From Clostridia bacterium (lineage in GTDB: Bacteria > Bacillota > Clostridia > Acetivibrionales > STF1-152), in contig JANQLN010000087.1 of NCBI GenBank assembly GCA_028280575.1, positions 1 through 37,120 of the forward strand: a DNA stretch of 37,120 bases, in the 5' to 3' direction. A model generated the notes under the pieces. The model was not told the origin of the DNA and ran no database searches. It worked only from the letters and a program-made list of their open reading frames with translations. This document shows, one piece after another, positions 14,107-24,009 of the stretch (the stretch's first letter is position 1; each line of letters opens with the position of its first letter). The translations under genes and the position numbers were made by a program.

Positions 14107-14940
14107 ATGGAAAGGACATGCGGCTGCTCTAAAAAAAATATGCCGGTCAACAATAGTATGGCATCTTTGCCTGCTGCTTTAGCTTTCGTAATTTATACAG
14201 CTTTTTTAATTCTGCCTGTCTATGCAATACTCAGCTATAGTTATCCATGGATTTTGTCAATGTCTGAAAATCTTACCGATTATATACCTGCCATCAGGCT
14301 CAGTTTTACTACATCGCTTATTTCAACATTTATCTGCTTTGTATTTGGGACTGCCGCTGTTTTTCATACGGTTAATATAAAAAACCGTGCATTGAAAAGA
14401 TTTATGGAAATCCTTTTCCAGCTCCCTGTCGTATTCCCTCCTGCAATTGCAGGAATAGGGCTCTTACTTGTTTTCGGCAGGAATGGAATCATAGGGAGGG
14501 TTTTGGTTGATTGGGGAATCCATATTTCATTTTCTTCAAAAGCGGTAATAATAGCCCAGGTGTTTGTTTCTTCCCCTTTTTATGTGCAGGTCATGAAATC
14601 CGCAATAGAAGCAATTCCACCCCAGGTATATGAAGCTTCCTATCTTTGCGGTGCCGGCAAATTGATCACGATATTTAAAATTATACTCCCTATGCTTTCG
14701 GGACATATCATATCAGCCCTTACACTATCATGGGTACGGGCAATGGGTGAATTCGGCGCAACAATCACATTTGCCGGAAATCTTGAAGGTATGACACAAA
14801 CAATACCCTTGAAAATTTACACCTTGATGCAAACTGACATTAAGGCTGCATCCTTACTGGCAGCCATTCTTTTGCTTTTGTCATTCACCATGCTGGTATT
14901 TGTTAAAATAGTTTCCTCAAAAAAGGAGTGGAGCTTTTGA
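14107..14940 (+). CDS. modB: Molybdate ABC transporter permease
   Basis: A 277-residue inner-membrane permease with about six membrane helices. The ABC-binding EAA-type loop (AIPPQVYEASYLCGAGKLITIFKIILP, spanning about residues 170-196) is intact. A hydrophilic N-terminal extension of about 22 residues (CGCSKKN) precedes the first helix. ATAAGGAGG precedes ATG 14107. The stop TGA overlaps the TTG start of the next gene, so the two are coupled. It must use an ATPase encoded elsewhere because no modC follows. Confidence 0.92.
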   Translation: MERTCGCSKKNMPVNNSMASLPAALAFVIYTAFLILPVYAILSYSYPWILSMSENLTDYIPAIRLSFTTSLISTFICFVFGTAAVFHTVNIKNRALKRFMEILFQLPVVFPPAIAGIGLLLVFGRNGIIGRVLVDWGIHISFSSKAVIIAQVFVSSPFYVQVMKSAIEAIPPQVYEASYLCGAGKLITIFKIILPMLSGHIISALTLSWVRAMGEFGATITFAGNLEGMTQTIPLKIYTLMQTDIKAASLLAAILLLLSFTMLVFVKIVSSKKEWSF

Positions 14941-15821
14941 TAAAGCAGATAAAAACAATCGATATGAGCCTTTTGTATCTATATAAAAGGAAAAGGCAAG
15001 TATCCCCCGATATGATAAAAAAATATATAAAGCTTTTGAATAAAACATGTGCGGACATACTGGAAATAAATACTTATGCATTAAGCTTGTTTGATATTTC
15101 AAAAGTAAAGGCAGAATTTGCCTTAAGGATTGAAAATGAAAAAGATTTATTAAAAGCTTCCGAAAAGAATATAACTCATTTAATATGCCCGTCCGGTAAT
15201 TTATATATAAATTGGCCTTTATCACTGCTTGAAGAAAAAAAGATAATTTTTGAAACGGACATAAAAAGCAATAAAAATTTAGAGCTTTTTAACTCTTGTA
15301 TAACAAAGCCTTCAGAGCATATTGACATTATCCGGATAAAGGGTATTGCTACATTTTCACGCAAGTATTTTGAAAGATTGCTTGAATTAAAAAAACTCAA
15401 TCCACGAATAAACATTGATTTATGTGCAGGCAACAAATACTATTGTGCAACCGCCTTAAGTTATGAAGCATGCAAATACGGCTTTTACAGCATCAGCGGA
15501 ACATTCACAGGGTTTGGCCCTTTAGGCGGGCATACACCTATTGAGGAATTGATTATGGCTGTGTCTGTGATTGATAATATTGCAACAGGGCATGACACTA
15601 AATATTTTTCGCAGCTTGCAAAGCTGTACGAACAAGTATTCGGCAGCCCTGTCAGCAGCTTCAAACCTGTTATCGGCAATAAAATATTTGAATGCGAATC
15701 AGGAATACATGTGGACGGTATAACCAAGGATTGTAAAACCTATGAACCCTACCCTCCTGAAATTGTCGGGTTAAAGCGCAAATTCATACGAGGTAAGCAT
15801 TCTAAAAAAGCAGTCCAATAA
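14937..15821 (+). CDS. nifV-omega: Homocitrate synthase omega subunit
   Basis: A 294-residue protein that supplies the C-terminal part of a split homocitrate synthase. A degenerate TIM-barrel portion comes first (it keeps GTFTGFGPLGGHTPIEEL but has no RDGEQ motif). The LeuA/NifV linker and C-terminal region follows: ESGIHVDGI, YEPYPPEIVG and a final GKHSKKAVQ. I choose TTG 14937, overlapping the modB stop and 8 bases after AAAAGGAG; a GTG at 14928 falls inside that ribosome binding site. It works with the alpha protein encoded next, making homocitrate, the organic ligand of FeMo-cofactor, from acetyl-CoA and 2-oxoglutarate. Confidence 0.88.
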   Translation: MIKQIKTIDMSLLYLYKRKRQVSPDMIKKYIKLLNKTCADILEINTYALSLFDISKVKAEFALRIENEKDLLKASEKNITHLICPSGNLYINWPLSLLEEKKIIFETDIKSNKNLELFNSCITKPSEHIDIIRIKGIATFSRKYFERLLELKKLNPRINIDLCAGNKYYCATALSYEACKYGFYSISGTFTGFGPLGGHTPIEELIMAVSVIDNIATGHDTKYFSQLAKLYEQVFGSPVSSFKPVIGNKIFECESGIHVDGITKDCKTYEPYPPEIVGLKRKFIRGKHSKKAVQ

Positions 15822-15844: not shown

Positions 15845-16639
15845 ATAAAAATAACAGATACTACAATGAGGGACGGCGAACAGCGGCCGGGTCTTGCTCT
15901 TTCAATTGAACAAAAGCTTGAAATAGCTCTTATTATGGATGATCTGGGAATATTCCAGATCGAAGCCGGTACTCCCGCTATGGGGGGAGATGAGATGGCC
16001 GCTGTGTGCAAAATTTCAAAATTGGGTCTCTCCAGCAGAATTTCAGCCTGGAATAGAATGAAGAGGGAAGATATCATGTGCTCTATGGATTGCGGCGTTG
16101 ACATAATTCATATTTCGGTCCCCTCATCAGATCTTCATATTAATAAAAAACTGGGAAAGGACAGGCCCTGGATAGAAGGCCATATGATAGCTTGCATAAA
16201 ATTCATAGTAGAAAATAAATTCAAAGCTTCTGTAGGTTTTGAGGATGCATCCAGAGCCGATATTTCCTTTTTGAAGCATCTTGCCTCATCCGCACGGGAC
16301 GAGGGTGCGGAAATGATAAGATATGCTGATACCCTCGGCATTTTGACACCTGCCAAGTCAGAAAACATCATCGGTACATTAAAAAGATCAATTAATGCTC
16401 CACTCCAGTTTCACGGACATAACGATTTTGGAATGGCCGCTGCGAATTCACTTGCTGCTGCTAAAGGAGGTGCAGATTATATAGACTGTACTTTCGGGGG
16501 CCTGGGTGAGCGCAGCGGAAACTGTAATATAATACATTTTATGAAATCTTACAGCAAAGTATTTGGTATAAATGCACCCGTGGAGGGATTTATAAACGCT
16601 GAAAAAAAAATACTTGACATATTTATGAAGCCAAAATAA
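15845..16639 (+). CDS. nifV-alpha: Homocitrate synthase alpha subunit, possible ATA start
   Basis: The catalytic DRE-TIM half of homocitrate synthase. It has the metal and substrate motif MRDGEQRPG at the N-terminus, HISVPSSDLH, GFEDASRAD, YADTLGILTP and the metal-binding HGHNDFGMA. The first ATG (15866) would begin right at MRDGEQ and delete beta strand 1, and it lies 29 bases from the ribosome binding site. The family sequence IKITDTT is encoded directly upstream, starting at an ATA codon (15845), 8 bases after AAAGGAAG. There is no ATG, GTG or TTG between the upstream stop (15803) and 15866. I therefore call an ATA start, giving 264 residues; a sequencing error is the alternative. Confidence 0.85.
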   Translation: MKITDTTMRDGEQRPGLALSIEQKLEIALIMDDLGIFQIEAGTPAMGGDEMAAVCKISKLGLSSRISAWNRMKREDIMCSMDCGVDIIHISVPSSDLHINKKLGKDRPWIEGHMIACIKFIVENKFKASVGFEDASRADISFLKHLASSARDEGAEMIRYADTLGILTPAKSENIIGTLKRSINAPLQFHGHNDFGMAAANSLAAAKGGADYIDCTFGGLGERSGNCNIIHFMKSYSKVFGINAPVEGFINAEKKILDIFMKPK

Positions 16640-16664
16640 TAATCCGTTTTTATGCCTATTGGGT

Positions 16665-16777
16665 ATTTGCTTATGTTACCATTTTTTTAAGTAAAATACA
16701 CTATGTTTAGTAGTATGAACAACAAGGTATGCAGCATTTTGCATATTCTTTACATGAAATCAATACAAGGCAAATGA
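16665..16777 (+). repeat. Diverged copy of the edge repeat, downstream of nifV-alpha
   Basis: ATTTGCTTATGTTA (16665-16678) and TTTAGTAGTATGAA (16706-16719) match the minus strand of the repeats at 1-99 and 26533-26631, with almost the same spacing (27 versus 26 bases). A short frame from ATG 16703 to TGA 16777 encodes MFSSMNNKVCSILHI and a few more residues, resembling KFSSMNNK...VCSLL of the other copies with about five codons missing. The third-base changes are silent (AAT to AAC), hinting that the ancestor was coding. I read it as an old transposase-end remnant. Confidence 0.4.
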
Positions 16778-16795
16778 AATTATTGTATTTTCTGT

Positions 16796-16824
16796 TTGAA
16801 TTTCGTCACAATATAATATATAAT
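16796..16824 (+). promoter_or_regulatory. Sigma-A promoter for the chemoreceptor-glycosyltransferase gene
   Basis: TTGAAT (16796-16801) and TATAAT (16819-16824) are 17 bases apart. The gene starts at 16882, so it has its own promoter and need not depend on read-through from the nif operon, although no clear terminator separates them. Confidence 0.6.
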
Positions 16825-16881
16825 TTTTATTAATAAATATTTAAACGAAATTTAATTTTTAATGTCTGGTGGCGATGTATT

Positions 16882-18630
16882 GTGTTGAAAAAACTAAAAT
16901 TTGAGCTTTCAATGAAATTTTTTATTTTGTCCGTTTTTATTATTTTATCATTAGTGCTGGTATACTCACTGGTTAATTCATTCATTATCCAAATTGCTTC
17001 AGCCGTATTTTTGGCAGCTTTTGCATTTATTGTATCAATTGTAATCTTAAAAAAGCTGCATACCATAGAGAAACAAATTTCAGAGCACGAAGCCTTCAGG
17101 CAAAATATGCAAAATTTTGCAAATTCCATTGAAACAGCCGCAAAAAGAGGTATCATCAAGCCGGGAAACGATATAGAAACAAAGCTTATTTCAAAATCAT
17201 TCAATTTTCTTATCGGGAACATCAGCAGCTTTATAGACGAACTTGACAAAATTTCGGAGAAAGCCCTGGATGTGAGCAGGAATCTGGCATCTACTACAGA
17301 CGGAGCCACAAGCAATATGGAAAATGTTACAACTGCTTTGAATGAATTTGCAAATGTCACCGATGACCTTATAAAGAGTTCAAACGATGTTACCGATAAT
17401 GCGGATAAGGTTGAACATCTTGCCCAGGAGGGTATGGAAAAGATGAATAGCCTTGAAATAATGATGGAAAATATTAAAAATGACTCATTAAAAGCTGCTT
17501 CCCAGATAGAAGACCTTCATACGGCAGTGGGATATATTGAAAATATAACCGGTGTAATTTCTGAGATAGCCGATAATACCAATATGCTGGCATTAAATGC
17601 TTCCATTGAAGCGGCAAGGGCAGGAGAAAGCGGCAAGGGTTTTACAGTTGTTGCACAGGAAATCAGAAAGCTTGCACAGGAAACCCAGAACTCTCTTAAA
17701 ACAATACGACAGCAGACAGATAATTTAAAGGACCGTACAACTGTTGCAGTAAGTACTATAAAAAGCAATAATGAACAGGTCATCAACGGTGAAGGTCTTA
17801 TGAAGGATACTCTGGAAAAATTCAAATCCATTACAAGAGATATGGACTTGATGATTGAGGGAATTACATTGACAGCACAGGTAAGTTCCAATATAACAAA
17901 GGGAAGAGAAGAGATTGCTTCAGCTTCCGAAGAGCAAATTGCTTCCATAAAGGAAATAGACGATATGGCTAAACAGCTTGCAAAAATGGCGGCTGAACTC
18001 AAGGAAAAGCTTGCTGATACACAGGTTGGCGGTACCAAATTAGAGATTGACCTTGAAAAGTTTGATAAAAGCATGCTCAATGTAACAGATAATATGAAAG
18101 AGACCTTGATTAATAATCTGGGAGTTTCAAATAAATTTGTAATTTCAGTTGTAGCAAGGCTTGAAGCAGTTAAAGGACATGAATTTCTTTTCAATGCACT
18201 TAAAAAATTAAAAGCACAGCACAGCAATTGGATATGCCTGGTTGTAGGTGACGGCTCGCTTGATGAAAAACTTAAAAATTTTACAAAGTCAGAGGGGTTG
18301 TCGGAGCATATAAAATTCCTTGGCTTCAGAAAAGATATTCAGCTTATACTTGCTATATCGGATGCAGCAATATTGACATCAAAAAAAGAAGGCATGCCCC
18401 CCAACATTCTCCTTGAAGCAATGGCTTCGTCCAAAGCCATAGTGGCAACAGAATTAAACGGCACAAAGTATATAGTACAGGATAACAAAACAGGTTTTCT
18501 TGTAAATTACGGGGATACCGAACAGCTGGCAAAAAAAATAGGCCTTTTGATAGAGGAGCCTGACAAATGCATCGAATTTGGCAAAAAGGCCAGAAAAACT
18601 CTTGAAGAGCTTGTTGAAATCCAGGATTAA
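16882..18630 (+). CDS. Chemoreceptor signalling domain fused to a GT4 glycosyltransferase half-domain
   Basis: A 582-residue protein. Residues about 12-56 are two adjacent membrane helices with almost no outside loop, so there is no extracellular sensor. Residues about 60-380 are a long helical methyl-accepting (MCP) domain with a canonical tip ([18 protein letters not shown], from E228, to AGE at 249) that binds CheA/CheW. Residues about 386-582 match the C-terminal, nucleotide-sugar-binding Rossmann half of GT4 glycosyltransferases: [21 protein letters not shown] (R426, K431), [18 protein letters not shown], and [13 protein letters not shown] (E503 and E512, one residue wider than the usual EX7E). 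The acceptor-binding N-terminal GT half is absent. GTG start at 16882 with a weak ribosome binding site. Role unknown; a cytosolic sensor of sugar nucleotides is a plausible inference. Confidence 0.85.
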
Positions 18631-18641
18631 AGAATATATGC

Positions 18642-18681
18642 AAAATACGTGAGGATATTTAAAAGTATTCTCACGTATTTT
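18642..18681. terminator. Bidirectional terminator between convergent genes
   Basis: AAAATACGTGAG (18642-18653) pairs perfectly with CTCACGTATTTT (18670-18681). A/T tracts on both sides let it serve the plus-strand fusion gene and the minus-strand ABC operon that converges on it. Confidence 0.8.
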
Positions 18682-18710
18682 GTTCTGTCTTAATTGACAC
18701 CGGTTGTCTT

Positions 18711-19349
18711 TCAATCCTTTTTAGCGGCAATCCATATATTTAAAAGCGCCAGAAACAATACCGGCAGCAGTAAATTCAACTTTCCTGGGAAATTATTCTC
18801 AAGGAGGCTCATAAGGTAGAACCTGCCCGTATATCTCCCTGCCGTAAACCATTCAAACATGAAATAAGCAAAGGATAACAGGTAGCCGCTGACATGGCTT
18901 TTACTGATGCTTGTCACCGTCATGCCGAAAAAACCCAGAAGCAAAGCAGATATAAATGTTCCGGTCCATATTTCCCATAAAGGGAAAGTTCCTCCTGACG
19001 CTTTTGCAGTTAATACTATAAGTCCTATTGATAAAAAAGTAACGGAAATAGCAAGCATAAGCCTTAGAACGAAAGTATAAACATGTGGAGCCGTCCTGGA
19101 ATAAACTATATCACAGGCATCGAAATTCTCCTCAATATTACCTATATGTGATATAAGCAGTATACCTAAAACTGCAAGAAAACGCTCGCCTATTACCGCA
19201 GCCGTTTCAAAATCAACCAGCTTCAAACTGAAAATTACAGGTATGACAGCTAACAGTGCTGCTGCTGCAATCATATTATACCCGGTTATTATTTTGATAT
19301 TATATTTTGAAATTGTAAAAAATGCCCTTGCCGAAAAAACTTGAACCAC
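18711..19349 (-). CDS. Multi-pass membrane protein of the ECF-linked ABC system
   Basis: A protein of up to 212 residues with about five to six membrane helices and no recognised catalytic motif. It resembles the membrane half of ABC-2 type exporters and is last in the sigma-ABC operon. The start is uncertain. A GTG at 19349 lies inside the end of the upstream gene, only a base or two after GGAGG. An ATG at 19274 (MIAAAALLAVIPV) would begin within the first helix and lacks a good ribosome binding site. Overlap with the upstream gene (about 50 bases with the GTG) indicates coupling. It probably forms a complex with the 482-residue permease and the ATPase. Confidence 0.65.
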   Translation of the reverse strand: MVQVFSARAFFTISKYNIKIITGYNMIAAAALLAVIPVIFSLKLVDFETAAVIGERFLAVLGILLISHIGNIEENFDACDIVYSRTAPHVYTFVLRLMLAISVTFLSIGLIVLTAKASGGTFPLWEIWTGTFISALLLGFFGMTVTSISKSHVSGYLLSFAYFMFEWFTAGRYTGRFYLMSLLENNFPGKLNLLLPVLFLALLNIWIAAKKD

Positions 19350-22511: not shown

Positions 22512-22935
22512 GAGTGTCCCTTTATTTTTCTGAAATCAGCAGGTGAGAAACCTGATAAGTATTACGAAAAAAGTGAAGAATTGCTTAAATATTTTGAAAA
22601 ACGCTTCCATAAGTTGATGTCCCTGGATGTAAAACCTGATTTTATTTGCACAGGCGGTTCCGGCACACTTATTCACCAGACACCTGAAATCTTTAGGGAA
22701 CTGGCACTGCCAATTGTCAAAAGGATAACATCACCGGCAAAAAATTATAAAATCCCCTCACATATCCATTCATGCGGATCGGAAAAAGAGCTTGTAAAGA
22801 TCATGGCGGAAGAAACGGATTTAGTAGTGATAGACCCCCTGGAAATACCGCCAATGGGAGATTGCAATCTCAGGGAGCTAAAAAAACTGTATGGTGACAA
22901 ATTGGTGTTAAAAGACAACATACACACTACAAAAG
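22512..22935 (+). pseudogene. Truncated URO-D family gene remnant
   Basis: An open frame without a plausible start encodes the middle and C-terminal part of a uroporphyrinogen-decarboxylase-family protein. It runs from LKSAGEKPDKYYEKSEELL through VKPDFICTGGSGTLIHQTPE and IPSHIHSCGSEKELV to KLVLKDNIHTT. The N-terminal barrel half is missing. The frame then runs into antisense sequence of the convergent URO-D gene. It is related in family to the intact neighbour at 22939-24009 but lies on the opposite strand, so it is a decayed second homologue rather than a tandem duplicate. The 5' break lies within about 30 bases of the ECF promoter, which may mark a deletion junction. Confidence 0.75.
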
Positions 22936-22938
22936 TAA

Positions 22939-24009
22939 TTAAACTATTCCCATACATTCATCAAACATGGCTGCAATGTTTTTAACCGGTATATCCTTAT
23001 CAAGTCCCTGGGAACCGCACAGGATATATCCTCCATCTCCCTTGAAAAGGTCTATCACTCTTCTTACTTCCCTTCTGACATCCTCTTCGCTCCCTTCAGG
23101 CAAAAGGTGCTGTGTATCTATTCCACCACATAATGTGATATCTTTTCCAAAGTCATTTTTTATCCTGTCAATATCCATACCTTCGGCATTGACCTGAACA
23201 GGATTCAATATGTCCGCTCCAATCTCAATCAAATCAGGTATGATTTCTCTTATTGCGCCACAGGAATGCTGGAAAACAAAAGCATCATGATTTTTTATAA
23301 CATCATATAATCTTTTGAAAATCGGTTTGAAATACTTCCTGAATATTTCAGGATTCATGATGGTATTTATTTGTGTGCCAAAATCATTACAGTTCTGAAT
23401 AATATCAATCCTGCCTTTTCCAAGCTCAAGAGTTTTTTTGGTATATGCAATCCAGAAATCAGATATTCTCGAAAGTATTGCTTTGGAGATTTCAGGTTCA
23501 ATTGACAAAAGGACAAGTGCATTTTCAAAACCGCACATCCATGTCATATTATGAAATACAGGAGCCCATACTCCTCCAATGATTGCGTAGTCCTTATACA
23601 ACTCAAACATATCTTCCAAATCATCTATGGGTACAAAATCATTTATATCCGGCCAATTGTATTCCTCCACTTCCTTAACGGAGGTTACATTCGCAAAAGG
23701 TCTCAAGTCGTCATTATCACTCTTATTCTCTTTTTTGCTTTTAAGGGGAACTCCCCAATAATCAGCTTCTATGCCGCTGAAAAAACGTGTTGGTCCAATA
23801 TATTTCAGCGGATGGAATTCACGTATATCAACACCTGATCTTATATTGAATTCTTCTTCGTTTGATAAATTCAATTCCTTGCTTATCCGCTTAACCATAT
23901 CAGGACCAGTACCAAATGTGCTTATGGGTACCCTGTCTGTTTCTTGTCTGCCTACGGCTCTTCTAACCCTCTCTTTTGAGTTCACATGCAACACCTTCTT
24001 TTCCATCAT
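22939..24009 (-). CDS. URO-D (uroporphyrinogen decarboxylase) family protein
   Basis: A 356-residue protein of the URO-D barrel family. N-terminal SKERVRRAVGRQETDRVPIS is typical of the methyltransferase-like subgroup rather than HemE. Other landmarks are FQHSCGAIREIIPDL, LNPVQVNAEGMD and CGGIDTQHLLPEG. Proteins of this subgroup work in corrinoid-dependent methyl transfer or related demethylation; no corrinoid protein is encoded beside it. ATG 24009 (or 24006) has no strong ribosome binding site. The gene diverges from an AraC regulator, which may control it. The exact substrate is unknown. Confidence 0.85.
   Translation of the reverse strand: MMEKKVLHVNSKERVRRAVGRQETDRVPISTFGTGPDMVKRISKELNLSNEEEFNIRSGVDIREFHPLKYIGPTRFFSGIEADYWGVPLKSKKENKSDNDDLRPFANVTSVKEVEEYNWPDINDFVPIDDLEDMFELYKDYAIIGGVWAPVFHNMTWMCGFENALVLLSIEPEISKAILSRISDFWIAYTKKTLELGKGRIDIIQNCNDFGTQINTIMNPEIFRKYFKPIFKRLYDVIKNHDAFVFQHSCGAIREIIPDLIEIGADILNPVQVNAEGMDIDRIKNDFGKDITLCGGIDTQHLLPEGSEEDVRREVRRVIDLFKGDGGYILCGSQGLDKDIPVKNIAAMFDECMGIV

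Follow-up and report, generated by a model that had tools for sequence, protein, structure and literature searches.

The stretch of DNA analysed here (the window; 37,120 nucleotides of a Clostridia bacterium contig) carries a gene that joins a chemoreceptor (MCP) to the C-terminal half of a GT4 glycosyltransferase (GT) within one uninterrupted frame (Table 1). The 582-codon frame claimed in a preliminary description of this DNA was thereby confirmed, and GGTGG at 16868-16872, as read by eye, is a plausible ribosome site for its GTG start. The Pfam search that the same description had proposed placed both domains in this frame far over cut-off: MCPsignal at residues 172-351 (E 5e-33, 114.8 bits versus a cut-off of 34.6) and Glycos_transf_1 at residues 412-572 (E 8.7e-36, 123.5 bits versus 26.4), each more than three times its bit cut-off. 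Weak Pfam matches to RdRP_2 and Snf7 fell below cut-off and were set aside as chance coiled-coil or compositional matches. In NCBIfam, many models of MCPs and of GT4 enzymes were matched in part, with no equivalog above its cut-off among the 25 matches listed. Among solved structures, the first part of the protein matched bacterial MCPs, and the second part matched the GT4 enzymes Alr3699, PglA-type, BshA-type and TarM. The gene had been credited with its own promoter and terminator. The terminator-like hairpin is convincing; the promoter is weak, with 10 promoter-like sites within 16500-18800 versus 7.7 +/- 3.1 in shuffled sequences.

Table 1. Features of the fusion gene and its product, with positions in the window.
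Feature	Position	Strand	Remarks
Fusion gene	16882..18630	+	582 codons plus stop, GTG start
Two transmembrane helices with almost no periplasmic loop	16909..17046	+	residues about 10-31 and 34-55; predicted from hydropathy
Juxtamembrane segment, degenerate HAMP-like	17047..17235	+	residues about 56-118; HAMP likeness inferred from alignment
Complete MCP signalling hairpin, 38H class	17236..18021	+	tip at residues 239-249, end at about 380
Methylation-consensus site	17917..17946	+	residues 346-355; one full consensus
Junction/linker TQVGGTKLE	18019..18045	+	residues about 380-388; alignment on both sides
GT4 C-terminal (donor-binding) Rossmann domain	18046..18627	+	residues 389-582; without final cross-over helix
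Altered EX7E motif E503-GMPPNILL-E512 (EX8E)	18388..18417	+	extra CCC codon in C6 run
Intrinsic terminator-like hairpin after stop	18640..18683	+	20 pairs

Upstream of the fusion gene a nif cluster comes to its end, with a homocitrate synthase encoded by two genes, and downstream lie ABC-transporter genes on the opposite strand; no glycan gene stands beside the fusion gene. The split homocitrate synthase consists of NifV-omega-like and NifV-alpha-like genes (14928-15821 and 15866-16639, + strand), preceded by molybdate-transport-like genes, as in Clostridium pasteurianum. Since the nifV-alpha loci that we inspected in the order all lack an MCP within about 1.5 kb, we rejected a nif-linked MCP as a conserved unit. 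A loose pattern flagged one locus (L066), in which the flagged frame is the nifV-alpha frame itself. As the related nifV-alpha loci inspected are without an MCP at this distance, the neighbourhood is uninformative on function: the earlier statement that the gene adjoins the nif cluster is correct, and this proximity carries no information. Elsewhere in the window, a NiCo riboswitch (RF02683; 1809-1893, - strand; 69.8 bits versus a gathering threshold of 37) is located directly upstream of a cation-efflux-like gene (833-1747, - strand). Additionally, a 134-aa frame (22581-22985, + strand) that by eye resembles a methyltransferase/uroporphyrinogen-decarboxylase-like fragment is convergent with, and overlaps, a full-length counterpart (22939-24009, - strand), and is possibly a gene remnant.

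The two N-terminal membrane helices of the preliminary description were recovered as hydrophobic stretches separated by almost no loop. No Pfam sensor or HAMP family was matched in residues 1-173, in agreement with the earlier statement that an extracellular sensor domain is absent, and residues about 100-118 seem to resemble helix 2 of a HAMP in degenerate form. By Pfam, the protein thus lacks the N-terminal sensor and HAMP by which an MCP might be recognised; these are not obligatory, as another MCP of the same genome (L014) is also sensorless. The signalling hairpin had been called complete, and this is borne out by the MCPsignal match, by the conserved tip residues N239, E243, R246 and E249, and by arms of 129 + 141 residues between shared alignment columns, which correspond to 38 heptads (38H). 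The same arm lengths, hairpin and tip motif recur in L084-L092, nine MCPs (about 31-38% identity) that belong to other families of the phylum, and L014 shares the hairpin, the tip motif and the two transmembrane helices without a sensor domain. In contrast to the fusion protein, all of these receptors end at the position of its residue 375-386 or thereabouts, and none has a GT domain. Because its arm lengths match those of the 38H relatives and it reaches their usual C-terminus, the MCP half is, judging from these alignments, a whole receptor and not a truncated one.

The Glycos_transf_1 match and the GT4 structure matches support the earlier assignment of the remainder, from about residue 386, to the C-terminal Rossmann half of a GT-B enzyme. 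The start of this domain carries an N-G-[VI]-D motif (N-G-V-D in GT4 relatives), versus K-L-E-I-D from residue 386 here, and the join sits at the GT C-domain border. As had also been described, the acceptor-binding half is missing: no GT match was found before residue about 388, and the MCP fills the part where the N-terminal Rossmann domain would be. At the other end, the protein terminates 4 residues past a column with F/Y in its relatives, which continue into a cross-over helix that is absent from the GT half in the alignment; in WsaF, this helix packs on the N-domain (PMC3898925). Of 16 columns conserved in at least 85% of 31 full-length GT relatives, 15 are kept, and the nearest GT relative is 38% identical. 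The GT4 glycosyltransferase L011 (G055:C7), with 38% identity to residues 389-573, shares the C-terminal Rossmann domain with its R, K, E and E, but is a full two-domain enzyme with a normal EX7E, whereas the fusion protein has the C-half only, EX8E, and no cross-over helix. AlphaFold2 predictions were of low confidence both for the GT half alone (pLDDT 42) and for the full protein with three alignment rows (pLDDT 53, pTM 0.34). The believable elements are limited to the long helices and the hairpin turn near residue 247, and both models are too poor for the donor pocket to be judged.

The GT half had been described as having its donor-site residues. R426, K431, E503 and E512 are indeed present, as is G456, but the site is not canonical, owing to EX8E, P519A and Y530. 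The two glutamates are 9 positions apart, a spacing (EX8E) seen in 0/31 relatives, with EX7E in 31/31. The extra proline codon lies within a CCCCCC run (ATG-CCC-CCC-AAC, 18394 onward), and the motif with a single CCC would equal the common GT4 form; three-base slippage would be the simplest origin of EX8E. Position 519 has A in PglA-type enzymes as well, and Y530 replaces an E or D found throughout a panel of 13. In GT4 structures, the first glutamate of EX7E is in contact with the donor sugar, and the second with the ribose (PMC3898925), so the EX8E change may alter sugar recognition. EX7E is described in the GT4 structures compared in that work, and WsaF itself is without the first Glu (PMC3898925); the activity of WsaF shows that the loop can tolerate change in an active enzyme. 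Given EX8E, P519A and Y530, the earlier case for nucleotide-sugar binding was overstated.

These data bear on the earlier suggestion that the protein is an active glycosyltransferase recruited to chemoreceptor arrays. Although R426, K431, E503 and E512 would suit a transferase, EX7E is disrupted, and the cross-over helix is missing along with the acceptor half, the part that would supply the acceptor site and the second wall of the catalytic cleft. In split GT-B enzymes of the Alg13/Alg14 type, the C-terminal GT-B half is a separate module and the N-half comes from a partner protein. The fusion likewise carries its C-terminal GT-B half as a module; unlike in Alg13/Alg14, no orphan N-half was found in the genome by a search with PF13439, all matches to which lie in frames of at least 335 aa. 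With the acceptor half missing, no orphan partner by PF13439 and EX7E altered, transferase activity is, from sequence, very unlikely, and its recruitment to arrays is hardly credible.

A draft genome of 143 contigs and a unique architecture would be compatible with an assembly chimera, i.e., unrelated sequences joined within a contig. However, the join is in frame and at the borders of both domains, with a linker of fewer than 10 residues. The 160 bp of junction DNA are unique in the genome (the best other match being 25 bp at 88%), making a repeat-driven misjoin within the genome unlikely. The two sides of the join are equal in base composition (GC 0.372/0.376, GC3 0.350/0.351). Strong homology apart, the open GT frame is not due to chance, as in 0/20,000 base shuffles did the GT part stay open over 200 codons. 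A real gene is supported by the frame, by the borders of the domains and by the terminator-like hairpin immediately 3' of the stop, and we consider a chimera improbable.

No second fusion was found among 58 genomes of the order, 391 of the class and 398 of the phylum, nor among 59 genomes of the class to which the closest MCPs belong. Matches in those genomes covered one half or the other, never both, at no more than 38% identity, and in close relatives neither half exceeded about 38% identity. The searches used thresholds of E 1e-30 to 1e-40 and, in the larger ones, the best few candidates per genome, settings that would reveal a close fusion but might overlook one that is very diverged. The sole other genome examined of the same family, a small one, is without the gene. 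A scan of a genome-contig collection produced no fusion and two ordinary MCPs only (L009 and L010), viral contigs (IMG/VR) yielded no homologue and no fusion, and a plasmid collection gave single-domain matches only, none covering at least 80% of the query. The preliminary description had proposed a count of the architecture in other genomes, which thus stands at zero further instances among those searched, and it had stated that no system of this kind is described; in line with this, our literature search found no paper with an MCP-glycosyltransferase fusion. One match in these searches, G851:C36:46-1041, is an MCP-like stretch with seven in-frame stops that aligns to query residues 99-431, and is probably either an MCP pseudogene or an alignment that continues beyond the receptor's stop.

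Six MCP genes and six CheW-domain loci (by Pfam) were counted in the genome, and two of the CheW-domain loci belong to frames (680 and 710 aa) that are compatible with CheA. A cheB-cheA-cheW-cheC-cheD-like set lies beside a sigma-28-like gene on contig C21, and a cheA-cheW-MCP-cheR-like set on contig C3 (CheW by Pfam in both, the remainder read from translations). The CheA-linked MCP of C3 (L013) has a tip-to-end length of 141, one heptad below the 38H relatives, i.e., 36H, and three other MCPs (L014, L015 and L018) are 44H. A further MCP (L017; G000:C127:46241-47500) carries a CZB domain at its C-terminus (E 5e-11); no transmembrane part is evident, and its hairpin measures about 38-40H by alignment. 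With L017, the cell already uses a plan of a hairpin followed by a C-terminal domain.

We tentatively favour a lineage-specific chemoreceptor in which the GT half, if it has any role, serves as a cytosolic input domain at the C-terminus. A full-length, sensorless, membrane-anchored 38H chemoreceptor would have acquired, in a single lineage, a free-standing GT4 donor-binding Rossmann domain at its C-terminus. Since MCP C-termini emerge beside the membrane-proximal end of the hairpin, the GT domain would be expected to hang in the cytosol near the membrane and the adaptation region. There, a nucleotide sugar, a related ligand or a partner might bind in the manner of CZB receptors, and binding would be passed to the hairpin and on to CheA/CheW, with no sugar transferred. 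We infer the near-membrane position, the ligand input and the coupling to CheA.

Several observations are consistent with such an input domain: both domains score well over cut-off in one frame, the MCP ends and the GT starts at natural borders, and 15 of the 16 GT columns, the tip residues for contact with CheA/CheW and one methylation site are conserved. The CheA/CheW sets and the CZB-bearing MCP of the genome point the same way, and the C-domain is where most of the GT4 donor site is located (WsaF, PMC3898925). Moreover, ligand-binding domains of no fewer than 17 Pfam types are known to follow MCP domains on the C-terminal side (PMC7390727). Against it count the donor-motif changes EX8E, P519A and Y530. 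The fusion being a single instance, conservation offers no evidence of selection on the fused state. Furthermore, the other MCPs of the genome are 44H or 36H and so make no obvious natural partners for a 38H receptor in an array. The earlier argument that a receptor without a sensor needs an internal input is not compelling, because L014 has neither a sensor nor a C-terminal domain, and no input domain is therefore required.

A silent, accidental fusion is a close reading and almost as likely. Here a working MCP would carry a drifting GT passenger, gained by stop loss plus rearrangement and tolerated because MCP C-termini accept extensions. The occurrence in one genome, the completeness of the MCP half and the tail-less, sensorless MCP of the same genome are all as expected for such a passenger, as is a GT half that is cut at both ends and altered in the EX7E loop, P519 and the acidic residue at 530. 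Nevertheless, 200 codons without a stop or frameshift, and the retention of 15 of 16 highly conserved columns at only 38% identity to the nearest GT relative, speak against drift; both objections would fail for a recent fusion whose donor gene is simply unsampled.

Within the input-domain reading, a more specific proposal is that the receptor reads the nucleotide-sugar pool via a captured GT donor domain, whose altered EX7E loop would bind without catalysis and link envelope-precursor or carbon status to motility; this we regard as rather unlikely. Alternatively, the GT half could serve as a membrane tether or scaffold, docking the receptor to envelope-glycan enzymes or substrates with no small-molecule sensing. 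Its expected site near the inner membrane face, home of many GT4 enzymes and lipid-linked sugars, would suit this role, but no glycan gene adjoins, the PF13439 search of the genome found no orphan N-terminal GT half, and GT4 acceptor contact lies in the missing N-half. We therefore hold a tether to be a slim prospect.

To return to the favoured input domain, its closest known counterparts are the MCP-CZB receptors, such as L017. Similar to these, the fusion places a small cytosolic domain downstream of the hairpin, past the normal receptor end, and a ligand bound there would be predicted to change CheA activity. It differs in having a GT4 donor-binding Rossmann domain in place of the zinc-binding CZB, in being membrane-anchored, and in that its ligand is putative. 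C-terminal MCP input domains are of a known kind, and a GT domain in that place appears to be new. With one example and an altered donor motif, the fusion should be taken as a lead, not as a system. C-terminal chemoreceptor input domains are poorly characterised and, if the proposed reading is true, a GT-B half-domain in this place would represent a new kind of sensory input and exemplify the reuse of the substrate-binding half of an enzyme as a receptor.
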